Virus record (IMG/VR): IMGVR_UViG_3300018426_000209
Coordinates: 1-20,300 of that record
Length of the DNA: 20,300 nt
Reading direction: 5' to 3' (one strand)
DNA from: a virus
Part shown: positions 5,384 through 17,292 of the stretch, piece after piece
Layout of the letters: each line of letters starts with the position of its first letter
Numbering within the stretch: the first letter of the stretch is position 1
Program-made: the position numbers and the translations under genes
Notes under the pieces: model-generated
Database searches by the model: none
What the model saw: the letters and a program-made list of their open reading frames with translations, nothing else
Told to the model about the DNA's origin: nothing

Positions 5384-5459
5384 TGGCTCCCAAGGACGGG
5401 CTCGAACCGCCGACCCACTGATTAACAGTCAGTTGCTCTACCTACTGAGCTACTTGGGA
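5384..5459 (-). tRNA. tRNA-Asn (GTT)
   Basis: A 76-nt cloverleaf with encoded CCA. Acceptor TCCCAAG/CTTGGGA with G73, anticodon arm ACTGA-CTGTTAA-TCAGT giving anticodon GTT, T arm GGCGG-TTCGAGC-CCGTC. It is the first tRNA of the array and follows the structured leader RNA directly. Confidence 0.96.
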
Positions 5460-5461
5460 AT

Positions 5462-5774
5462 AATTTTGTGTCACCTTGAGGCAAATTTATCAGAAGTCCC
5501 CCGGGTAGATAGTAGCCATTATTTAGTATCTCAACACTATTGATACCGACTCTATCTTTGAAGCTCTGCTTTCAGATACGCATCAGTCACTGTTTGGTCC
5601 CTCACCAGGATTTTACGGGTTCAGCCTCGCGATGCCTACCTACCTGTTACGTTTCTTCACTCGTGATACGTACCTGAAAACAGAGCGAATCTGTTTCCAA
5701 TCTATTATCGGGTTACCCCTAAGACAAAACCAAATTTTCAAAAAGCTGGAAGAAGTGATCTTCCTTTTGTTGAT
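5462..5774 (-). ncRNA. candidate structured non-coding RNA upstream of the tRNA array
   Basis: About 310 bases between the early promoter (5781-5814) and tRNA-Asn hold no credible gene on either strand but fold strongly on the minus strand. Elements 5' to 3': hairpin GGAAGA-TCACT-TCTTCC (5764-5748); GGG-GTAA-CCC with a GNRA loop (about 5719-5710); a 22-bp helix of 5686-5665 with 5584-5563 enclosing an 80-nt loop; and a second domain with AGATAGAGTC (5557-5548) pairing to GGCTACTATCT (5517-5507) through one bulge, capped by an inner hairpin (5546-5526). The three non-Watson-Crick pairs in the long helix and the one in the second helix are all G-U on the minus strand but would be A-C on the plus strand, so the minus-strand RNA is the conserved form. 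CCCG near 5709 can pair with CGGG near 5503 to close the domain. RNase P cleavage at tRNA-Asn would release it. I do not recognise it as tmRNA, RNase P RNA or 6S RNA. T4 also encodes small stable RNAs (C and D) beside its tRNAs. Confidence 0.65.
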
Positions 5775-5780
5775 AGTAGT

Positions 5781-5814
5781 AATATAATGTATGTACCAAG
5801 GTTTGTAAACCCCC
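5781..5814 (-). promoter_or_regulatory. T4-type early promoter of the ncRNA/tRNA unit
   Basis: Minus strand: GGGG, -35 GTTTAC (5805-5810), 18-nt spacer, -10 TATATT (5781-5786), then ACTACTATCAAC. Transcription should start near 5774 and run through the ncRNA and five tRNAs to the terminator at 3570-3604. The -35 lies in the near-palindrome GGTTTACAAACC, also present at 18105-18137. Confidence 0.75.
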
Positions 5815-5853: not shown

Positions 5854-6312
5854 ATGAGGTGTCTATTAACAGCGATATGTATCTTTTTTGTAACACCAAC
5901 TTGGAGTGCCGGACATGTTGACAGTATAATACTTAATGCTGAGAAGTACGTTGGAATGAACGAATTTGATCATACCAATATACTCCAAGAGTTGATGGAC
6001 GTAGATCCCATAACAACGCCGTGGTGTGCAGCATTTGTCAATTCCGTATTAGAAGAATCTGGCATACAAGGAACTGATTCTCTATTAGCAAGATCCTTTT
6101 TAAAATTTGGCGAACCCGTCGACGAACCGATCTATGGTGATCTTGTAATCTTTCCAAGAAACCTATCCTGGCAAGGACATGTTGGATTCTTCCTCGTCTC
6201 TTATATAGAGGATGGCATCGAGTACTATGCTATAATTGGTGGCAATCAGGATGATGAAGTCAGCTACAAATTATTTAGAGCAGACGAAGCAATAGGCATA
6301 CGTCGCTACTGA
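5854..6312 (+). CDS. exported TIGR02594-like cell-wall hydrolase (lysin)
   Basis: A 152-residue protein resembling the TIGR02594 family of CHAP/NlpC-like peptidoglycan hydrolases found in phages. Residues 1-19 (MRCLLTAICIFFVTPTWSA) form a Sec-type signal peptide, so the mature enzyme would act in the periplasm. The family signatures are PWCAAFVNSVLEESG (56-70) with the likely nucleophile Cys58, SLLARSFLKFG (76-86), YGDLVIF (94-100), GHVGFF (108-113) with the likely catalytic His109, and IIGGNQDDEV (127-136). Length is normal for the family. It is the only complete plus-strand gene in the window and has no clear ribosome site. It probably serves as an endolysin that needs no holin for export, or as a virion-associated hydrolase. 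Confidence 0.88.
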   Translation: MRCLLTAICIFFVTPTWSAGHVDSIILNAEKYVGMNEFDHTNILQELMDVDPITTPWCAAFVNSVLEESGIQGTDSLLARSFLKFGEPVDEPIYGDLVIFPRNLSWQGHVGFFLVSYIEDGIEYYAIIGGNQDDEVSYKLFRADEAIGIRRY

Positions 6313-8562: not shown

Positions 8563-9183
8563 CTATCTTTTTTTACCCTTTGGCACAACTACAATCTCAA
8601 CATTTTTCGAGACAGGCGGGGTCTTAATGTTGCTATGGTGATGATACAATATGAACTTAGTGTCAGGAGACTCTTTCCACATCCTATGCCATATGGGTCT
8701 CCAGTTACCGCTTAGACGCGTGTTGTTCATAGTACCACGATCAGAATTTAGATAAAAGTCAGTGCAGCTTCTTAGATCCAGGTCAAAGATAGAATCGAAC
8801 CCGTACATGTGTACCTCTTCCGCCTTTAACTTATGTGCAGCATAGTGAACCGATGTATGACCGCAGTTGAAGTCAGTGTAGCTCCGAACCCAGGTTGGTT
8901 TATCTAAATAGAACTCCTTGATCTGTGGTGCATATTTGAGGTAGAATCTAGGATTCACCTCTGTCCATTTCTTCGGTCGGAATCCTAGAATCCATTCTCC
9001 TGGAACAGTAACACTTCCATCAGTTATAGCCTTCATCATCTTAAAGTCGACCATAAAGGTTGCCTTTGCTTCAGGAACAGAAAATGGAGGAAGGTTACAT
9101 GTGTATTTCAATCCTTTTACGGAGGGATTGTAAGTCAGCCCAGCCGAAGGCCCATTTCCAATAATATGAACTACTTTACCCAT
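8563..9183 (-). CDS. GNGPS-type glycosyltransferase-like protein (GT42/DUF115-like)
   Basis: A 206-residue protein. It starts with VVHIIGNGPS (4-13), the nucleotide-sugar binding turn seen in GT42 sialyltransferases and DUF115/MAF-type proteins. The other conserved block, NCGHTSVHYAAHKLKAEEVH (106-125), followed by MYGFDS, matches the usual helix and strand of this fold; HHH (181-183) lies near the end. It is probably a CMP-sugar or related transferase, but the donor and acceptor are unknown. It is the last gene of the glycan operon; its start overlaps the previous gene by 8 bp, with GGAG upstream. Confidence 0.7.
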   Translation of the reverse strand: MGKVVHIIGNGPSAGLTYNPSVKGLKYTCNLPPFSVPEAKATFMVDFKMMKAITDGSVTVPGEWILGFRPKKWTEVNPRFYLKYAPQIKEFYLDKPTWVRSYTDFNCGHTSVHYAAHKLKAEEVHMYGFDSIFDLDLRSCTDFYLNSDRGTMNNTRLSGNWRPIWHRMWKESPDTKFILYHHHSNIKTPPVSKNVEIVVVPKGKKR

Positions 9184-9802
9184 TCATCATTCTCCGAATT
9201 TCATCTTTTCCTTTTGCCCCAGTCCAATGCATAATGCTAATATTATCTGGAGCAGTATCATCTAACAGATCTAGCCTTAGAGTGTTGTACTTTCTTGGTA
9301 GATCGTGAATATGTATCATTCTTCGCATGCCCTCGCGTACGAGCCTGTGAAGCACCTCTTGGTCACCAATTTTCGGGTTTATAGCAACAGCTGATGCCCA
9401 CTCGTCCAATATATTCGGACGATCCTCGAATGCAACTACTCCACTATTGTGCCACTTCTCTCCTCGTCTTTTCGTCCAGGGTTTATCCTCTACCATCATC
9501 AACTTATTTGGTTCTGTTAAATCGAAAATATCTTCGATGTTTGCTTTCACGTGACAGTCGGTGTCTAACCAGCATACCTTCTTTGCAATCCTTGATGCAG
9601 AGATCATTGCTGCTGGCTTCTTAAACCAACCTTTGTCTTGATTGCCTCGAAGAGACTTACGGAGTTCGGGAAAATGACTACCTTCCATGCCGAAATCGAA
9701 GATCATAAGTTTAGCGTTCGGATTATGCTTACGAAAGTTTTCTACAAACCAGGGAAGCATCCATTCAGTGTTAACGTCACATCCAGTAATAAACAAGTTC
9801 AT
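9176..9802 (-). CDS. glycosyltransferase, GT8-like (DTD motif)
   Basis: A 208-residue protein starting at MNLFITGCDV; a frame extension to 9838 would overlap the upstream gene by 26 bp, whereas the ATG at 9802 follows TAGGGAT. It has WFKKPAAM (59-66), the metal-binding CWLDTDCHV (77-85), NSGVVAFEDRP (119-129), GDQEVLHRLV (146-155) and MHWTGAKGK (191-199). The last is the His-Trp-Thr-Gly type motif of GT8 retaining transferases. It probably transfers a hexose to a glycan. It is shorter than most GT8 proteins (about 270-340) but has all core motifs. Confidence 0.85.
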   Translation of the reverse strand: MNLFITGCDVNTEWMLPWFVENFRKHNPNAKLMIFDFGMEGSHFPELRKSLRGNQDKGWFKKPAAMISASRIAKKVCWLDTDCHVKANIEDIFDLTEPNKLMMVEDKPWTKRRGEKWHNSGVVAFEDRPNILDEWASAVAINPKIGDQEVLHRLVREGMRRMIHIHDLPRKYNTLRLDLLDDTAPDNISIMHWTGAKGKDEIRRMMNG

Positions 9803-9812
9803 ATTCTTATCC

Positions 9813-10454
9813 CTAAAGTATTTCGTATGTCTCGCCATAGTTGTGTTTGGCTAAACATCCTTTTTCATTCTGAATAGTAGTAAAGCTATCATTTGCTATA
9901 ACCGGCCACGGATAGTATTCTTGCAAAAACGGGAACGTATCTCTATGCAAGAACACGTCAGTCGGCTTCGCTTTAATCTTGGTCTGGTCAATCATCTTCT
10001 TTGCGCCAGATGGCGAAACTTTATATGCATGGGCACCTGGAAAGTATGCTTTACTTACCAAAGGTCCTGCACCAAGAGCAGTCGGGGTATTAAACTTTCC
10101 ATATGAAGGCGTACCATAGGAGATGCATCCAGCAAACGGTACATCTGGTATTTCGGATTTTACTACTGCATCGTGTTCGAAGATTAAAATGTCTTCGTTC
10201 GTTTTAACAGATTTTTCCCATAATGTGTAATGAGAAAGGAACGCTGCGATGCAGTTTGGGGTTCGCGAATAAACTTCACGAAAGTCTTGATCAGAGATTC
10301 CTCTATCGATCAGCATCTGTGTAAGGTTCGACTTTGGCGTAATAGCATGAAATTTTTTCACATCCAATCCAAACCTTGCTGCAGATCGAATACATCTCTC
10401 TGCGGCTTGTACGGACCGCTCGTGGTCCATAATAGTAATAACATAAGCTTTCAT
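9813..10454 (-). CDS. glycosyltransferase family 25-like protein
   Basis: A 213-residue protein starting at the ATG at 10452-10454 (MKAYVITIMDHERS). A 27-codon longer frame exists but would overlap the upstream gene; the chosen start overlaps its stop by ATGA. Family 25 (LPS glycosyltransferase) signatures are an N-terminal YVITIMDHERS, a conserved AFLSHYTLWEK (71-81), the metal-binding IFEHDA (91-96) and the helical GAHAYKVSPSGAKKMI (140-155). It likely adds a sugar to an LPS-like glycan. The upstream gene is a diverged paralogue. Confidence 0.87.
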   Translation of the reverse strand: MKAYVITIMDHERSVQAAERCIRSAARFGLDVKKFHAITPKSNLTQMLIDRGISDQDFREVYSRTPNCIAAFLSHYTLWEKSVKTNEDILIFEHDAVVKSEIPDVPFAGCISYGTPSYGKFNTPTALGAGPLVSKAYFPGAHAYKVSPSGAKKMIDQTKIKAKPTDVFLHRDTFPFLQEYYPWPVIANDSFTTIQNEKGCLAKHNYGETYEIL

Positions 10455-11128
10455 AGTGTAGTAGTACTCCGCGTACCTTGTACCTTTGTATAATATCTGG
10501 TAGTTACACCCAACTTGGGAACTAACTGTCGACACATGATTGCATCATTTGGCCATAGACCATAATCTTTCACCAGCTGAATCATCTTCTTCGCTCCTGC
10601 CGGTTTAATTATATATGCAGAATTTCCAGCAAGACCTTGAGGAATGGTATCATCATCAATCTTTGGAACACGGATAAATCGATCGGGGGATGCCTGTACA
10701 ATATTATTAAATTTACGGGAAAGACGAGTAGCTCCAATTGGATTATTAATACCGATTATATCAAACGGCGCTTCGCTCGGATCAAAGTCAATCTCCTTTA
10801 TAAAATAAGAATCATGTTCTAGGATAACGATCGGTTCATCTAAAGTAATACACATCTTCCATAGAACATAGTGACTGAGCGCCGTAGCGATCCGTGCATC
10901 GCGGTTTCGTGTCTGATATGGGCTTTTCTTTAATCCTGATTGCATATCAAGTACTGGCTGATTCCATGGATAGTTCCATTTCAAATCAAACATCTTAAGC
11001 TTCTCTTGTACCTCATCAGGAGTAATCGCATCAAACACCATAACCTTCTGAGAGGTGCTTGACTGTAATTTCCTATAAGCAGATTCAGAGATCTTATTGT
11101 TTTTTATTACGATGGCATAACGTTTCAT
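10451..11128 (-). CDS. glycosyltransferase family 25-like protein, paralogue of 9813-10454
   Basis: A 225-residue protein. It shares the family layout with its neighbour: ATALSHYVLWK (81-91), VILEHDSYF (101-109) with the Asp acting as metal ligand, and AGNSAYIIKPAGAKKMI (167-183). The N-terminus (MKRYAIVIKNNKISE) has a different substrate region, so the two probably make different linkages. It overlaps the sulfotransferase gene by ATGA. Confidence 0.85.
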   Translation of the reverse strand: MKRYAIVIKNNKISESAYRKLQSSTSQKVMVFDAITPDEVQEKLKMFDLKWNYPWNQPVLDMQSGLKKSPYQTRNRDARIATALSHYVLWKMCITLDEPIVILEHDSYFIKEIDFDPSEAPFDIIGINNPIGATRLSRKFNNIVQASPDRFIRVPKIDDDTIPQGLAGNSAYIIKPAGAKKMIQLVKDYGLWPNDAIMCRQLVPKLGVTTRYYTKVQGTRSTTTL

Positions 11129-11637
11129 TTTTTCAACTTATTCAGATTCGGAAATTCTTTCAGATCAGTAGTAACCCCCAGAAACTCAGCAAGCTTCTGC
11201 GGAGAATCACCACCTACGATATTTATTATAAACAAGTTATCTCTGTTTGTAAAATAATTTTTTACATCCTGATCGTGTTTATTCCATGCCACTTCAGCCT
11301 CGAAGCGGTTCGGAAAATCCGCACCATACACTTTTCTTCGGGTTATAACCTGTGAGCTATTCATCGACGTCCAATTTCTTTTTCTTTCGAAGTAAGGAAC
11401 AATCGAATCTAACCATTGTTCCTTGTCTCGAATGGTGTAGATGAACTTCGATCCTGGGAACTCTTTGTCGAGCTCTTTATATACAGGAATTACTGGAATA
11501 TCATTTGCCCCATCGTTATCTGGATCCCATAACTGACTTGGCTGTGGATAATGTATCGTATTGAATCCCCACTCGCGGAGAACGTGGTTTAGCGTTGTTG
11601 TTCCAGTCCGGGATAGACCGATCCCAAAGATTTTCAT
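11125..11637 (-). CDS. PAPS-dependent sulfotransferase-like protein
   Basis: A 170-residue protein of the sulfotransferase P-loop-like fold. GLSRTGTTTL (7-16) is the 5'-phosphosulfate loop of the Sulfotransfer_4 type and PGSKFIYTIRDKEQWL (61-76) carries the 3'-phosphate binding Arg of the second motif. It likely sulfates a sugar hydroxyl in the glycan made by neighbouring genes, using host PAPS. The length is short (families are often 200-300), so it may be a minimal form. It overlaps both neighbours by 4 bp. Confidence 0.88.
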   Translation of the reverse strand: MKIFGIGLSRTGTTTLNHVLREWGFNTIHYPQPSQLWDPDNDGANDIPVIPVYKELDKEFPGSKFIYTIRDKEQWLDSIVPYFERKRNWTSMNSSQVITRRKVYGADFPNRFEAEVAWNKHDQDVKNYFTNRDNLFIINIVGGDSPQKLAEFLGVTTDLKEFPNLNKLKK

Positions 11638-12449
11638 ATGTCATATCCCCATTGATCTCGAGGAAGGTTTACTACTTTCAATAACTGCTCCTCGTTCATA
11701 TTATCGGCACCAGGAAACTGGCAATGAACAAATTTTGTTTCAGGTGTACGCCAATCCATAATTCTTCTTTTCGGCTGAATCTTATCACGAGTACCATGAA
11801 CATAACTATTCCAGTTATTATCCATCTCCATCACCTTCATGTTAGTAGCAAACATCATGGCATGTAGATAAGGCTGATCACACGTGTAAAAAGAATCTAG
11901 CCCAATACTTCTAACAAGGTTTACATACTCATCGAATGAAGCCCAGTTATTTCGAGCATGTTCCATACCTTTATCACTGTAAAGAACCACACCAGTGTTA
12001 TAGACTTTTACTAAACCCTCTTCAGTTCTTGGTACCTCCGTTCCCCATTTATCTTTCACCATTCTTGCCCATTGTTCATCGCGGGCGGATGTGATTCTAC
12101 CGGTGGTGATCTGTCTCTGCTTTGGTTGAAAAGGTTCAGTGCATATACCGATATCAGCTGAATGATCGAAATACTCAAATATATTCTCTTGAAGATTGTC
12201 TACAGGAAAGACGTCGGTGTCTGCAAAAAGAATAAAGTCATAGTCACGATACGGTTTTTCAAATACAGGTTTAAAGGCTCCATAATGTGCGGAGTAGTTT
12301 CCGAATCTTCTATCACGGATGTACCGCGGATTATCCTCAAAAAGGTAATCAGCACCAATCCTTTCAGCATACGTCCTCATAGCATCGACACCCGCCTTCA
12401 CAGAAGGCTTAACCGGTCCATCCCAATATTGATATATCAAAGTCTTCAT
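11634..12449 (-). CDS. glycosyltransferase with DTD motif (A), paralogue of 12446-13117 and 16513-17292
   Basis: A 271-residue protein beginning MKTLIYQYWDG. Residues 72-80 (FILFADTDV) hold the DxD metal/nucleotide-sugar site, 150-158 (YNTGVVLYS) the usual NxG acceptor loop and 189-196 (TCDQPYLH) the Asp-Gln following helix. The N-terminal pattern YAERIGADY is shared with the two paralogues. It would add a hexose or similar residue; the donor is unknown. It overlaps the next gene by ATGA. Confidence 0.85.
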   Translation of the reverse strand: MKTLIYQYWDGPVKPSVKAGVDAMRTYAERIGADYLFEDNPRYIRDRRFGNYSAHYGAFKPVFEKPYRDYDFILFADTDVFPVDNLQENIFEYFDHSADIGICTEPFQPKQRQITTGRITSARDEQWARMVKDKWGTEVPRTEEGLVKVYNTGVVLYSDKGMEHARNNWASFDEYVNLVRSIGLDSFYTCDQPYLHAMMFATNMKVMEMDNNWNSYVHGTRDKIQPKRRIMDWRTPETKFVHCQFPGADNMNEEQLLKVVNLPRDQWGYDI

Positions 12450-13117
12450 TCTATCAATCCCCTTTCGACCAAGGATCTGTAGTTTTCAATCTTCGGTCTT
12501 TTCGGTCCACCTGGTGCAACCTTTGGTCTTATATGAATAATATACGCATCTTCGACACCCTCATCGAAGCTACTGTAGTTCCATTGTTGCCTGTCCATAT
12601 ATGTATTCTCATTCTCTTCCAGCTTCTCCATAGTAGCTAAATGGTGCATGATGCCTTCGTCTACCATGTTGGAGTTAAATTTCAGCATGTTGAAATGTAC
12701 AATGTGGCGACGTAGTCTCTTCCTCATATCTTTCTCGAATCGGTATATAGATCCGCCCCAGTAAGGATACTTGGGGTTACATAGATCCGGAAGTCGTCTG
12801 CCAATGCTTTTTCTTAGATGCGGTTGGACCTTATAATGTCTACCCATACCCTTTTCATCTTTAAAGATATTTTTCGTCATTCCCTTTCGGGTGAACATGT
12901 CCATATCCATCATAACTACTGTATCGTAGTCGTCGAATTCTTCAGACAACATGTGAACCTTTTGGCATTCACTTTTAAGATTCGGATTGAAGATGAGGCC
13001 TCTTAGCAGTTTATATTCAGCGCCACAGAATTCAGCATATCTTTGTATGTTCTCCATGGACAACTTTTCAAGCTCTCTTAGATTACCATTCCAATGTTGT
13101 AGTATGATATTCTTCAT
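12446..13117 (-). CDS. glycosyltransferase with DMD motif (B)
   Basis: A 223-residue protein beginning MKNIILQHWNG. Residues 65-74 (DTVVMMDMDM) contain the DxD site; YAEFCGAEY (27-35) corresponds to YAERIGADY of paralogue A. YPYWGGSIYRF replaces the usual acceptor loop. The C-terminus is basic, with many Arg/Lys (PKVAPGGPKRPK), possibly for membrane or lipid-linked acceptor contact. It overlaps its neighbours by 4 bp. Confidence 0.83.
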   Translation of the reverse strand: MKNIILQHWNGNLRELEKLSMENIQRYAEFCGAEYKLLRGLIFNPNLKSECQKVHMLSEEFDDYDTVVMMDMDMFTRKGMTKNIFKDEKGMGRHYKVQPHLRKSIGRRLPDLCNPKYPYWGGSIYRFEKDMRKRLRRHIVHFNMLKFNSNMVDEGIMHHLATMEKLEENENTYMDRQQWNYSSFDEGVEDAYIIHIRPKVAPGGPKRPKIENYRSLVERGLIE

Positions 13118-13857
13118 TTCTTTTTACCTAGTAGGAATCTATTGTTTTTAAAGTAAGGACATTTCGTAATTTTCAATTCATGAGAAGAATCGAGATTATC
13201 CATTAGTGTTTCAAAGTAAGGTAAATTATCTACCCCGAAATTTGCATTGTCTTTAAAAGCAATCAACATAAAGTCATACATGTGATAAAAGGATTCGAGC
13301 TTACTTCTTTCAGACATTGGCATTTCATTAATACTAAAAGTTCCAATGATTAAACTCTTTTCATTTGATGGTAAAAGATTCTGAGGAGTCATCTCTCCAA
13401 TGTTATAATCGTGACCTTTTCCCAAAGTGTTATCTAGCCACTTCTTTTGCATTTTTCCCATGATAGGGAAGTCTATAGCTTGATATCTACCAGCAAATCC
13501 CGTCTTATAGAACGATCGACATAGGTTACCGTATCCTGCTCCTATATCTGTAATATGACTTAGAGTCTCTGGACCATACCCTTCTTTTTTTAGAATATCG
13601 ATATAGTAGGCAGACTGGATTGTAGAAATGCTGTACTGGTTATCAAATCCTAAATGAGGCTTACCAAATGCAGGATCTTTCAAGTTCTCAAAGAAATCAA
13701 GCTTCAACATATCTCGATAAATTGGAGATGACATGACATTACCGGAAAAATTCGGATGAACCGTATATGATATAGTTTTCTGAGATAGGAAATCAACCGG
13801 GTGGGATCTTAACTCGATTTCAATCTTTTTTAAAAATTCTTGCCAATCTTTACTCAT
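13114..13857 (-). CDS. sugar O-methyltransferase-like (SAM-dependent) protein
   Basis: A 247-residue protein with the class I SAM-binding motif ITDIGAGYGNLCRSF (102-116). The downstream AIDFPIM is motif II, and SLIIGTFSINEMPMSER the motif IV-type strand. The arrangement with LGFDNQYS (69-76) fits the putative sugar O-methyltransferase family (TIGR04371-like). It probably methylates a glycan made by this operon. It overlaps both neighbours by 4 bp. Confidence 0.78.
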   Translation of the reverse strand: MSKDWQEFLKKIEIELRSHPVDFLSQKTISYTVHPNFSGNVMSSPIYRDMLKLDFFENLKDPAFGKPHLGFDNQYSISTIQSAYYIDILKKEGYGPETLSHITDIGAGYGNLCRSFYKTGFAGRYQAIDFPIMGKMQKKWLDNTLGKGHDYNIGEMTPQNLLPSNEKSLIIGTFSINEMPMSERSKLESFYHMYDFMLIAFKDNANFGVDNLPYFETLMDNLDSSHELKITKCPYFKNNRFLLGKKK

Positions 13858-14570
13858 TTCTTTCTTCCACCAGTTTGGGAGAGAGTAAGAACTCCTCCGA
13901 GATATCCTTTATGGTCTTCTCTACCGTTTACCAGAACCTGATACCATCCCCATTCAGCTGGTAGTAGGTTCCCGCTTTCATGTAAATCATTTACCCTCTT
14001 ACAATCCCAATACTCTGGACGATGCATGATCATTGCCTCAGGACTAATCATTTTATACCATCGAACGTTATTCTTGTTCTGTTCACCTAAATGGGGTGTC
14101 GGGTTATTCAGTACTTTTTGATTCCAATCCCAATACCCCATTCCTATAGGACCTTCATTATAAGATTTTTCAAACCACCTATTATAATCTAGTTCCCGAG
14201 AAAAGTAAACATCCCATCTACAACGAACGATCAGATCATACTCTTTATCGAGTCTGGATACAAGAGTGTTGTGAGCCAGAATTTGTTTTGTCCCTTGGAA
14301 AAGCTTAAGACTTGGTCCACCGTTATTTCTTTTTGTTTGGAAATATTCACCAGCAAATTCAGTCGTATCGAGTACGGGATGATAATGTATCTCTGGCTCA
14401 GGCTCTATAATTAGATCCTCATATGCATGTATCACACTGTTGTCCCAAGTGTGTCGAAAGATATCTACGTCGACATTACGGAATGCATAAAGGAGATTAT
14501 CATCCATCTCACTTCGATCAGCCCAAGGGTTCATCCTTTGCTGTCCGCTTATACAAACCGCAATCTTCAT
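13854..14570 (-). CDS. unknown glycan-island protein, possible glycosyltransferase
   Basis: A 238-residue protein starting MKIAVCISGQQR, the beginning of a family seen in phage and giant-virus glycan clusters. A YDLIVRCRWDVYFSREL segment provides an Arg-x-Arg-x-Asp type motif typical of that family. The rest is aromatic-rich, including WDNS, GYWDW and AEWGWY. The reaction is not established; glycosyltransferase is inferred from context. An exact early-promoter match lies inside the gene at 14181-14215. Confidence 0.7.
   Translation of the reverse strand: MKIAVCISGQQRMNPWADRSEMDDNLLYAFRNVDVDIFRHTWDNSVIHAYEDLIIEPEPEIHYHPVLDTTEFAGEYFQTKRNNGGPSLKLFQGTKQILAHNTLVSRLDKEYDLIVRCRWDVYFSRELDYNRWFEKSYNEGPIGMGYWDWNQKVLNNPTPHLGEQNKNNVRWYKMISPEAMIMHRPEYWDCKRVNDLHESGNLLPAEWGWYQVLVNGREDHKGYLGGVLTLSQTGGRKK
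14181..14215 (-). promoter_or_regulatory. possible internal early promoter
   Basis: Minus strand: -35 GTTTAC (14205-14210), 18-nt spacer, perfect -10 TATAAT (14181-14186), preceded by GGGAT as in the other early promoters. It lies in coding sequence (SRELDYNRW region). If active it would give the downstream half of the glycan operon a second start site. Confidence 0.5.
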
Positions 14571-15007
14571 TTATCTTTGTAGGCTTTTGAGATCTTTTCT
14601 TTGATAAGAGTCGAACTGATATTCGCAGTATAAGGAAGATAGACTAATATGATATTTCTAATATCCAACCACTCCTGACTGAATCCCATCTGTGCATAGT
14701 AATCCTTTGCTGCCCAGTCTGTACCGATTGCAATGATATGAGGAGCAACATTTTCGATTGACTGAGTGCTATCTTGTCCACCAGTATTCGATACTACTCG
14801 ATCGACATATTTGCATGCCAGGAGGATTTCTCTTCGCTGTTCAAATGTATGGAACGGAGTGAAGCCTTTATAATCTTGAATGAATTCATCTGTATTCAAA
14901 GATACTACGACTTCATCAGCAAGCTGTGTACACATTCGAAGAAAATTTACATGCCCAGCATGAAAGAGATCAAAGGTACCGCCTGTGTATAAAACTTTTT
15001 TCGTCAT
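14567..15007 (-). CDS. TagD-like glycerol-3-phosphate/sugar-1-phosphate cytidylyltransferase
   Basis: A 146-residue protein of the HxGH family. Motifs are GGTFDLFHAGHVNFL (9-23) with HAGH at 16-19, FEQRREILLACKYVD (55-69) with the RxxxL region, GTDWAAKD (95-102) and NISSTLIKEKI (129-139), the nucleotide-binding RxxxxxSST-like end. It most resembles TagD-type cytidylyltransferases of about 130-145 residues, which make CDP-glycerol for teichoic-acid-like or other polyol-phosphate glycans; sugar-1-phosphate nucleotidylyltransferase is an alternative. It lies between the methyltransferase and CISGQ-family genes, overlapping each by 4 bp. Confidence 0.9.
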   Translation of the reverse strand: MTKKVLYTGGTFDLFHAGHVNFLRMCTQLADEVVVSLNTDEFIQDYKGFTPFHTFEQRREILLACKYVDRVVSNTGGQDSTQSIENVAPHIIAIGTDWAAKDYYAQMGFSQEWLDIRNIILVYLPYTANISSTLIKEKISKAYKDK

Positions 15008-15576
15008 TTCGTTAACCTCATATCATATTGATATACTTTATTACGCTTTACGTGCTCTTTCTCTATAGTGCTATTCACGAAACCATGACTTCGGAAGAAA
15101 TCCATATACTCTTCATAGCTCGGTGCACCCTGGTTATAGATCTTACCTGGAGCAGGTACTTCAGTATATATTACTTTACAATTGGTAAGTATTTCGTCAC
15201 AATCAGATAGTATATCCAACTCTGATCCCTGCGTGTCAATCTTAATAATATCAGGTAGAGGAATATCAAAATCTGTGAGATGCTGTGTGTCTCGTATCTG
15301 TAATTCATATGATTGAGGGTTTGTATAGACCCCAGTCATATCAGTTTCTTTATAATAGGAATCTCCTGTACCACCTCTGTAAAAGAAATTAACCACGGAC
15401 TTATCTTTCGAAGAAAGTACACAATTAAACCAATGGTGATCTTTTAAATCGGTCGGTTTCGATAAACCTCTATTTGCCTCGAACATATAAGAAACTGTTT
15501 CCGGGTTTTCTTTTAACATGTTACGGGTGAACACACCCTTATGTGCACCGATATCATATAGAATAGTTTTAGTCAT
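15004..15576 (-). CDS. FkbM-family methyltransferase
   Basis: A 190-residue protein starting at ATG 15574-15576 (MTKTILYDIGAHKGVF), placed after GGAAGAA; earlier in-frame ATGs exist but overlap the upstream gene more. The SAM motif is YDIGAHKG (7-14), and the FkbM signature KIDTQGSELDIL (112-123) holds the conserved Asp-x-x-Gly-Ser-Glu. FkbM enzymes methylate hydroxyls, often on sugars. It is the second methyltransferase of the island. Confidence 0.9.
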   Translation of the reverse strand: MTKTILYDIGAHKGVFTRNMLKENPETVSYMFEANRGLSKPTDLKDHHWFNCVLSSKDKSVVNFFYRGGTGDSYYKETDMTGVYTNPQSYELQIRDTQHLTDFDIPLPDIIKIDTQGSELDILSDCDEILTNCKVIYTEVPAPGKIYNQGAPSYEEYMDFFRSHGFVNSTIEKEHVKRNKVYQYDMRLTK

Positions 15577-16516
15577 CATTTCTTCCATAGTAATTTCGAT
15601 ACCATTGTAAAAAGTTCTCTACACCCTTCTCGATCGGAGTATCAGCTTTATAACCAAGAGCTTGGAGTTTAGTCGTATCAGACCACGTCTCAAGAGCATC
15701 TGCTGGGTGTCGAGGCGCAAATTCTTTCGTTGCAGTTTTACCCAGATTCTTTTCAATGCAAGAGATAAAGTCCATTAGTTGAACTTGTTGGCCGTTGCCA
15801 ATACAGTACGTTTCACGTTCAGACATATTACGAGATACAATTTCTATTCCACTTACAATATCATCTACGTAGGTGAAATCGCGAATCATGTTACCATTAT
15901 TGTATACTGTAATTGGCTTATCGTTCATGATATTTTGGGTGAACGAATAAAGAGCCATGTCAGGTCTACCCCAAGGACCATACACTGTAAAGAAGCGAAG
16001 GCATACTGCATTTTTAATCTTAGAGATATGGAACTGATTCTCATTCGTTTGTTTACTGAATCCGTAAGGGCTCAGTTGTTTTCCGAGCTTTTCATCAGGA
16101 GACCATGGTAATGGATTCCCTTCCATAGTACAAGACGTAGATGCATATATGACGTTATCGATACCAAGACCCTCACACACTTTTATTAGGTTCTGAGTGC
16201 CAGAGATGTTATTCGAGATATATTCTCCAGGAATATCCATCGACACTCGTACGCCCGCGTGAGCAGCCAAATGTATTACGAGATCCGGATTCTCAGACTC
16301 TATGTACGGTCGAAGCGCTCCGATATACGCCATATCCATATTTCGAACTTTGAGCCCGAACTTCTGTAGATCTCTTGCTCTAGCAAACTTGATCTCTCTA
16401 TCGTAAACTACAGAATTGTAGTTGTCAAAGCCACATACATCATGGCCTTCCCTCATGAATCGAATAGCGGTATGGTATCCGATGAATCCTGCCATACCCG
16501 TAATCATTACTTTCAT
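15569..16516 (-). CDS. NAD-dependent epimerase, UDP-glucuronate 4-epimerase-like
   Basis: A 315-residue extended SDR enzyme. Motifs: GMAGFIG (7-13) Rossmann binding site, HLAAHAGVR (82-90), STSCTME (126-132) with the catalytic Ser/Thr, YGFSK (151-155) with catalytic Tyr and Lys, and FFTVYGPWGRPDMALY (175-190), which is typical of UDP-glucuronate 4-epimerase (GAE/CapI). It would interconvert UDP-glucuronate and UDP-galacturonate, supplying an acidic sugar for the glycan. Length is slightly below the family norm of about 335. It overlaps the FkbM-type gene's start by 8 bp. Confidence 0.92.
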   Translation of the reverse strand: MKVMITGMAGFIGYHTAIRFMREGHDVCGFDNYNSVVYDREIKFARARDLQKFGLKVRNMDMAYIGALRPYIESENPDLVIHLAAHAGVRVSMDIPGEYISNNISGTQNLIKVCEGLGIDNVIYASTSCTMEGNPLPWSPDEKLGKQLSPYGFSKQTNENQFHISKIKNAVCLRFFTVYGPWGRPDMALYSFTQNIMNDKPITVYNNGNMIRDFTYVDDIVSGIEIVSRNMSERETYCIGNGQQVQLMDFISCIEKNLGKTATKEFAPRHPADALETWSDTTKLQALGYKADTPIEKGVENFLQWYRNYYGRNDD

Positions 16517-17292
16517 TGGACTGCCTCCATAAGCTTCTCTACATCTTCTCCAGCATTGGGGAGTTTATCCTTTAAAAAGAAATGTACAAATTTACAGTGC
16601 TGGATCTTTCGATTCGCAGTATACAGACCGTTCCACTTCCAATGGAGATTTTGAATATTCATTTCTTCTTTACGAATCCACCAATTTAAAAGAGTTTGAT
16701 CTGTTGACCATTTCCATGGACCCATACCATCATCAAACGCTTTAAACTCTTGGCGGCTTAAGAACTCTTTTGGTGTCTGACCTTTGAGATACTTTAGGAT
16801 GGATTTGTTTAGAACCATTACTCCCATATTCATAAACTCATAACCAAGATGATTCGGTTTGAAGTCAACCTTTGGATGTAATGGCTTATATTGCATTGAA
16901 GAGTAGTTTAGGATCTTCTTTTGATATTGTTCCGTGATCGGCATCTCACGCTCAACCACAGCAGCAAAATCTACATTTGGATCTACATCATCAAAGATAC
17001 TACCTGCATCGGGACGAATCCACACATCACTATCAATGATCGCAATCTGATCGTACTGATCAAGATACTCAAACGCATTTTCTTTTTCGAAGATAGGTAA
17101 GGGGAGAGGTCGGGACTGACATTCTTGTGATCGATTTGAAACAAATGGATCCGGCCGAATCCATAGCTTGGGGGTTGTTTGCTTTATGTAATCGATACCG
17201 TGACGATCAGCATATTCTTTCACACTTGTTGTGCAATGATTATAAAGCTTCGATTGCTTACCGACAGCAACCTGATAGATCAATCTTTTCAT
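16513..17292 (-). CDS. glycosyltransferase with DSD motif (C)
   Basis: A 259-residue protein beginning MKRLIYQVAVG, with the YADRHGIDY segment (27-35) aligning with YAERIGADY and YAEFCGAEY of the paralogues at 11634 and 12446. IAIIDSDVW (83-91) is the DxD site, FMNMGVMVLNKS the acceptor loop and STDQTLLNWW the Asp-Gln helix. It begins the sugar-assembly part of the operon; its ATG overlaps the previous stop (TAATG). Confidence 0.86.
   Translation of the reverse strand: MKRLIYQVAVGKQSKLYNHCTTSVKEYADRHGIDYIKQTTPKLWIRPDPFVSNRSQECQSRPLPLPIFEKENAFEYLDQYDQIAIIDSDVWIRPDAGSIFDDVDPNVDFAAVVEREMPITEQYQKKILNYSSMQYKPLHPKVDFKPNHLGYEFMNMGVMVLNKSILKYLKGQTPKEFLSRQEFKAFDDGMGPWKWSTDQTLLNWWIRKEEMNIQNLHWKWNGLYTANRKIQHCKFVHFFLKDKLPNAGEDVEKLMEAVQ

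Follow-up and report, generated by a model that had tools for sequence, protein, structure and literature searches.

A structured RNA in front of phage tRNA genes is a member of a hairpin family, not listed before, with exchangeable payloads

What kind of RNA fills the minus-strand stretch 5774-5460, between an early promoter and tRNA-Asn, in a phage genome fragment related to T4, and what might it do there? The fragment, a 20.3 kb IMG/VR record (IMGVR_UViG_3300018426_000209) that we call the window, encodes a gp32 protein (519-1457) that matches the T4 gp32 families, the best named relatives being T4-like cyanophages and phage C48C1. The initial annotation, made from the sequence alone, had placed a large structured RNA of no recognized class, kept by selection on the minus strand, at the head of the tRNA operon. 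Its position was read correctly, with the promoter and tRNA-Asn on either side (Table 1).

Several other features of the locus lie outside the stretch. The phage-group early promoter, with its nearly fixed start TATATTACTACTATCAACAA, has several uses per genome and was found in L169, L172, L176, L178, L187, L190 and L204 (loci in other contigs are denoted by L numbers) as well as at window positions 8150-8110. The sole clear plus-strand gene near the tRNAs (5854-6312) encodes a CHAP/tail-lysozyme-like protein with many homologues in other phages and diverges from the tRNA operon. A long minus-strand run of glycosyltransferase-like, nucleotidyltransferase-like and sugar epimerase genes (8563-17292) forms an unusual surface-sugar cluster beside the tRNAs, and the intergenic stretches that follow the tRNAs here (5033-4952) and in L087 (2930-3074) appear structured by eye and are located ahead of short early genes.

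Table 1. Coordinates of the features in and around the stretch 5774-5460, and of permuted tRNA cores in other contigs
Feature	Coordinates	Strand	Description
Early promoter	5781..5809	minus	TTTACA 5809-5804, 17-nt spacer, TATATT 5786-5781, then phage-group motif TATATTACTACTATCAACAA
Hairpin 5' of boxA	5748..5764	minus	6-bp GGAAGA-UCACU-UCUUCC; boxB-like by position
boxA-like sequence	5733..5746	minus	GCUUUUUGAAAAUU; family consensus CUCUUUGA[A/C]AAUU
Hairpin 1	5700..5725	minus	GUCU-UAG-GG(GUAA)CC-GAUAAU-AGAU; two short helices, conserved internal loop
Competing hairpin	5676..5698	minus	GGAAACAGA 5698-5690, able to pair with UCUGUUUUC 5684-5676 (helix A 5' arm)
Handle hairpin (helix A)	5563..5686	minus	Pairing and family; leader model R2 ends in the 5' arm
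Helix A, lower stem	5684-5675 / 5574-5565	minus	UCUGUUUUCA / UGAAAGCAGA; 10/10 in both arms against the family
Helix A, GG/UC	5674-5673 / 5576-5575	minus	Pairs, at the position of the family's 2x2 loop
Helix A, upper stem	5672-5664 / 5585-5577	minus	UACGUAUCA / UGAUGCGUA; 9 pairs
Payload	5586..5663	minus	78-nt apical domain; no T-arm; weak fold alone
Helix B	5507..5557	minus	Bulged hairpin AGAUAG-AGUCG ... UGGCU-A-CUAUCU
Hairpin C	5473..5506	minus	ACC..GGGG ... CCUC..GGU around conserved ACUUCUGAUAAAUUUG
tRNA-Asn(GUU)	5384..5459	minus	Leads five tRNAs: Asn, Trp, Cys, Gly, Thr (5459-5034)
Permuted tRNA cores	L257:983, L228:162-269, L245:2785, L231:4131, L278:1336 (minus)		First three inside handle hairpins

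The most prominent element of the stretch is helix A, the longest helix in the window (no plus-strand helix exceeds 14 pairs, and the longest in each of 40 dinucleotide shuffles had 13-19). It had been described as a 22-bp helix around an 80-nt loop; the location stands, and the helix proves to be one pair longer, with 23 pairs (5686-5664/5585-5563) enclosing 78 nt. The count of four non-Watson-Crick pairs, all of them G-U on the minus strand, holds, with three in helix A and one in the helix B stretch (5557-5548/5517-5507). Folding energy gives the same strand assignment: the minus strand reaches -93.1 kcal/mol (z -4.09; none of 100 shuffles was as good), whereas plus-strand folding is ordinary (z -0.88). 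The notion of one large fold fared less well. The minimum-energy structure joins the two ends of the stretch (5732-5724/5469-5461 and 5722-5715/5497-5490), and these long-range pairings have no homologue support; homologues show local hairpins in their place, and much of the predicted global fold is unsupported. The RNA is structured, as proposed, and consists of separable modules, namely a leader, a handle hairpin and a helix B/hairpin C domain.

Searches of Rfam and of named phage records gave no credible relative. At the gathering threshold, Rfam 15 reported only tRNA, and at E<=10 (521 nt searched) only two meaningless chance matches to eukaryotic families, in keeping with the earlier view that the RNA belongs to no known class; ten loci with family members likewise had no Rfam match over the handle coordinates. 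Searches with blastn, using the RNA alone and 15 members jointly as queries against 50,697 named phage records, yielded nothing credible. When the flanking CHAP protein and an 82-aa protein were used as anchors, only identical copies of the RNA were recovered, and gp32 as an anchor led only to close relatives without the RNA. No covariance-model match supports GOLLD, ROOL or any Rfam family, and the same holds for tmRNA. A group I intron can be set aside as well, with no group I match at E<=10; the P7-like look-alike AAGAUAGAGUC lies in helix B, which is a covarying hairpin. A protein-coding gene finds no support, for there is no conserved frame (the longest overlapping frames, of 45 and 51 codons, are on the opposite strand) and conservation in the homologue comparison tracks pairing, with insertions and deletions. 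Retron and integron attC readings were set aside, as neither a supporting gene nor a strand-neutral pattern was found.

Relatives emerged through the shared early promoter. A scan of IMG/VR with its initially transcribed motif TATATTACTACTATCAA returned 42 stretches. Where the promoter itself is present it mostly drives proteins; in L186, however, it reads into non-coding RNA ahead of tRNA-Asn, and beyond this tRNA come two hairpins with helix A-like arms (UCUGUUUUCACAUGCAC...GUGCAGUUGAAAGUAGA). A second conserved non-coding RNA (GAUGUUGAGUGGUUGUCGAACCCCUGGUUCUNAAGUUCC...), distinct from the window RNA, immediately precedes tRNA-Asn in two different phages, L186 (11343-11461) and L262 (4308-4427). 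A scan for UCUGUUUUCA followed at 80-110 nt by UGNAAGYAGA found 25 stretches, about 10 of them real, and a tighter pattern, UCUGUUUUCACAU...UGAAARYAGA, was present in 59 stretches of IMG/VR as opposed to only 5 in 84,980 bacterial and archaeal genomes. The resulting family comprises 71 hairpins at 43 loci, against one hit in reversed control sequence, and all of them are located in the tRNA arrays of uncultured phages, many of them giant. Wherever an assignment was possible, these phages fall into the T4 superfamily (gp32 was present in 9 of 33 contigs, one case being marginal, on a 518 kb contig, and the prohead protease in 5; the contigs reach 518 kb in length). The window RNA is a real structured RNA and a member of a family not listed before.

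The common anatomy of these handle hairpins includes a 10-bp stem UCUGUUUUCA/UGAAARYAGA, mostly a 2x2 internal loop CA/GY, a covarying 7-bp stem in fixed register and a variable payload of 34-127 nt. Because pairing was a criterion in compiling the 71 members, a less biased test of the upper stem used sets chosen solely through the lower stem and the first loop, with the 3' strand of the upper helix left unconstrained in the tighter scan. All 7 positions pair in 33 of 40 distinct arm sets and 6 in the rest (partner shuffles: mean 3.6, maximum 10), with 24 different helix sequences among them. The lower stem shows compensatory change as well (UUUUCA/UGAAAA, UUUUGA/UCAAAA, UUUACA/UGUAAA, UUUUUA/UAAAAA), and G-U intermediates occur in the covarying arms. 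All 62 tested members with a tRNA within 3 kb share its strand; 26 of the 71 lie 2-8 nt 5' of a tRNA and none stands directly 3' of one, and in L228 handle units follow each other in tandem, some with gaps of only 1-2 nt. Selection on helix A, previously inferred from the orientation of the wobble pairs, is thereby supported by covariation; the strand and position of the family are shown as well.

The window copy possesses the lower stem (10/10), an upper helix of at least 7 pairs (9), the strand of the tRNAs and a place about 100 nt before tRNA-Asn. It lacks the CA/GY loop; several other members also deviate from CA/GY, so that the 2x2 loop is common and not universal. The RNA recurs unchanged in one further contig of the same phage and is absent from the close gp32 relatives L087 (86% identical, the nearest sequenced) and L088 (78%). 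In L087, the early promoter is the same as that of the window and leads into a small protein gene instead, which indicates that the RNA module is optional and dispensable.

Helix B and hairpin C recur together, after a handle in L262 and immediately 5' of tRNA-Lys in L219 and L233. Both partners have changed in three of the 10 basal pairs of helix B (L262 and L219/L233), so that this helix covaries in homologues as helix A does within the 71 hairpins; in L262 the same is true of two pairs of hairpin C. Over three distinct sequences, 97% of the cells are paired with five double changes, and the agreement has a sharp optimum at zero slide. This covariation as local hairpins argues against the end-joining minimum-energy fold. 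L262 also carries a permuted alphaproteobacterial tmRNA gene (11042-11405; RF01849, 124.6 bits), suggesting an alphaproteobacterial host for a phage with a close relative of the window RNA.

Upstream of the handle, the leader has several conserved parts. The hairpin that precedes boxA has a predicted pairing probability of 0.99 and also scores as a weak terminator-like site; hairpins of other sequence occupy this place in L262, L291, L266, L237 and others, although not in every member, with a mean energy of -5.1 kcal/mol in the family against -3.2 for shuffled sequences (-8.1 against -1.7 in the window). A boxA-like sequence (at most 2 mismatches) is found 5' of about two thirds of the members, where 0.76 would be expected by chance in total; no recognizable copy lies near the remaining third, some of which are later units of an array. 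In DNA form, the family consensus CTCTTTGA[AC]AATT is close to the gammaproteobacterial rRNA boxA consensus GYTCTTTAANA (PMC5725501). The window copy deviates at position 4 (C4T), as does L291 with the same variant, and L219, L212 and L235 also differ at this position; in the boxA of E. coli suhB, the C to U change at position 4 is one of two that jointly abolish function (PMC5725501). Hairpin 1 is paired in 113 of 120 outer and 66 of 72 inner cells across 24 sequences that include the window (shuffled means 82 and 50). In 15 homologues it is 100% paired, with changes on both sides in 4 of 5 and 2 of 3 pairs, and the leader class of the window has a conserved UAG/GAURAU internal loop and often a GNRA- or UUCG-type tetraloop. 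The competing hairpin is paired in 97.7% of cells in the 15 homologues, with C-G replaced by U-A in three. A covariance model of the leader built from 15 sequences with the window excluded recovers the window with a score of 78 bits and an E value of 1.3e-12, as well as, with the training sites counted in, 50 sites across 83 loci.

Although the payloads differ, many are structured, and nearly unchanged payloads recur across phages (L186/L212/L235, L219/L233/L275 and L234/L240). In 21 of 69 distinct payloads, a T-arm with a canonical loop abuts the 7-bp upper stem (0.02 expected from shuffles), so that this stem often appears to act like an acceptor stem lengthened by the handle; a T-arm occurs anywhere in 30 of the 69 (0.25 expected), two or three T-arms are present in five, and more than half have no canonical T-arm. 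Circularly permuted tRNA cores, in which a T-arm comes first and is followed by the acceptor 3' strand, a short loop (UACG, GGAAA or UUAG), the acceptor 5' strand and a D-arm, occur at the places given in Table 1; in L257, L228 and L245 they make up the payload, with the handle at the anticodon stem. In L278 (5861-5956, minus), a predicted tRNA-Cys sits inside a handle helix and may connect ordinary tRNA genes with the handle RNAs. Of 18 handle-bearing contigs, 8 encode a T4-type RNA ligase (PF09511). Mimicry of tRNA is likely for the members with a T-arm. The window payload has neither a T-loop motif nor similarity to any other payload of the family, and as its T-arm beside a 7-bp acceptor-like stem is missing, the window copy cannot be identified as a tRNA-like RNA.

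The explanation toward which we lean, with some reserve, is that of a modular leader, built on the plan of rRNA operons, that lets polymerase transcribe the non-coding tRNA operon processively and from which a small RNA sealed by a stem is released. The stretch would be the 5' non-coding head of the operon, composed of exchangeable RNA modules. By analogy with rRNA operons and CRISPR arrays, the small hairpin, the boxA-like sequence and hairpin 1 would recruit Nus factors of the host (NusB and S10 at boxA), so that a long, untranslated and structured RNA could be transcribed to its end without being cut short by Rho; neither Nus binding nor Rho resistance has been shown. The basal stem of the handle would seal the ends of differing payload RNAs, and the hairpin may be excised as a small stable RNA in the manner of the pre-16S leader-trailer helix, RNase P making the cut on the 3' side, at tRNA-Asn. 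Excision would need host enzymes, since none of 37 contigs was found to encode a phage RNase III. Helix B and hairpin C constitute a second conserved module directly before a tRNA. The 5' arm of helix A may pair first with GGAAACAGA and later with its true partner, a strand exchange that might time folding. In the absence of transcript data, antitermination, excision or other processing and stability are all inferences. Counting against the model are the C4T change in the window boxA, although L291 shares it, the members without a recognizable boxA, the lack of the RNA in L087, and a window copy whose internal loop is paired and whose payload has no relative.

The model draws on likeness to the E. 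coli rrnB leader, which consists of a hairpin, ACUG, CUCUUUAACAAUUUA, UCAGACAA and UCUGUGUGGGCAC, the last part building the pre-16S leader-trailer helix (PMC10250234). Both have the order promoter, hairpin, boxA (boxA-like in the phages) and a strand starting with UCUGU, whose pairing encloses the product RNA in a helix, and in both a short upstream strand is able to pair with UCUG. The spacing from boxA to UCUGUUUUCA is 16-24 nt in short-type phage leaders, and that from boxA to boxC is 18-19 in Enterobacteriaceae (PMC10250234). The differences are that the phage product is a payload of 34-127 nt and not 16S rRNA, that the phages often have an extra conserved hairpin between boxA and the helix, and that the boxC sequences are unlike, with UCUGUUUUCA in place of UCUGUGUGGG. 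At exact spacing and under strict patterns, the boxA-UCUGU arrangement was not found in sampled bacterial genomes, which probably often lack rRNA operons. Another parallel comes from CRISPR arrays, where a boxA 5' of the array raised precursor RNA about ten-fold; they too are long and untranslated with a leader boxA that aids transcription (PMC7862264), whereas the phage arrays consist of hairpin RNAs and tRNAs instead of repeats and spacers.

The processive leader with a released RNA has to be weighed against readings that assign a narrower role to the same modules. One is that the hairpins act in cis only, serving transcription or maturation of the tRNAs (through antitermination, access of RNase III or RNase P, or 5' protection), and that the payload is a degraded spacer. 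The location of the module directly 5' of tRNAs, in the layout of an rRNA leader, and a window payload that folds weakly alone and has no relative agree with this; we nevertheless regard it as fairly unlikely, since a spacer would not need the structure, near-unchanged recurrence in different phages or tRNA elements that many payloads display, and the tandem units of L228, 1-2 nt apart, also speak against it. Less favored still is the possibility that the UCUGUUUUC strand, with its two alternative pairings, works together with the pre-boxA hairpin as an attenuator or switch that gates polymerase entry into the tRNA genes. In its favor are the conservation and covariation of the GGAAACAGA strand (in L255:66, the change is matched by the upstream strand alone) and the terminator-like score of the first hairpin, but the U-run there is short and interrupted, terminator-like sites occur at chance level in the stretch (2 against 1.3 expected) and the competing strand is missing from many members, making this reading quite improbable.

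Two further readings concern what the hairpin is rather than what its leader does. Handle RNAs might be decoys or tRNA mimics that bait enzymes acting on tRNA, such as host anticodon nucleases or modification or decay enzymes, and so protect phage translation. The T-arms abutting an acceptor-like stem, the payloads with two or three of them, the permuted cores capped by tetraloops, the handle around a predicted tRNA-Cys and the RNA ligase in 8 of 18 contigs all fit such bait, and yet no interaction partner is known, the canonical T-arm is missing from over half of the payloads and the window payload has none, which leaves the decoy an unlikely account of the window RNA. For the family as a whole, tRNA mimicry or decoy activity remains the leading idea, with no payload function known. 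It is scarcely credible, finally, that the inverted repeat is a DNA element, the end of a mobile or recombining unit with no RNA involved. Integron attC sites have exchangeable inserts between conserved inverted arms, a resemblance that no result of the analysis supports; against it, the wobble pairs are conserved in one orientation, the arms covary through G-U intermediates, plus-strand folding is ordinary and all placeable members have the orientation of the tRNAs.

Among known RNAs, the nearest in kind is T4 rnaC, whose 3' end is a T-arm next to an acceptor-like stem. Like its companion RNA D, it is (as species 1 and 2) one of the small stable RNAs in a tRNA cluster of the T4 superfamily; both differ in having no UCUGUUUUCA handle and no 2x2 loop and in their position at the downstream end of the cluster. 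Bacterial Y RNAs (YrlA), in which both ends form a stem that carries a variable and sometimes tRNA-like domain, are another parallel, and an identity as a Y RNA or Ro RNP was rejected because no Ro/TROVE protein was found in 37 contigs (incomplete as these are) and there is no Rfam match. GOLLD and ROOL are large structured phage RNAs near tRNA islands, of unknown function (PMC12286853); they span about 600-800 nt compared with 315 for the window RNA, and neither shared modules nor a sequence match were seen. We found no description of phage tRNA-array RNAs of this kind, of boxA in phage tRNA operons or of permuted tRNA in phages in the open-access literature (subscription papers were not covered).

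Structured RNAs next to phage tRNAs, such as T4 RNAs C and D, GOLLD and ROOL, have for decades lacked an assigned function. The handle family adds widespread RNAs with a short recognizable signature and exchangeable payloads, so that members can be listed automatically in metagenomes and expressed and tested one by one. The permuted and multi-T-arm payloads are unusual forms of tRNA that should be of interest to tRNA biologists. It is possible, although we would sooner expect otherwise, that large T4-superfamily phages carry a modular RNA-cassette system that copies how rRNA operons are transcribed and matured (hairpin, boxA and leader/trailer helix) and makes arrays of swappable small RNAs; many of these would be altered or circularly permuted tRNAs that counter host functions or stand in for them, and the window, with one handle RNA and one helix B/hairpin C RNA, would be a minimal version. 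If the likeness to rRNA operons is functional, it would show how phages transcribe very long tRNA arrays despite Rho.
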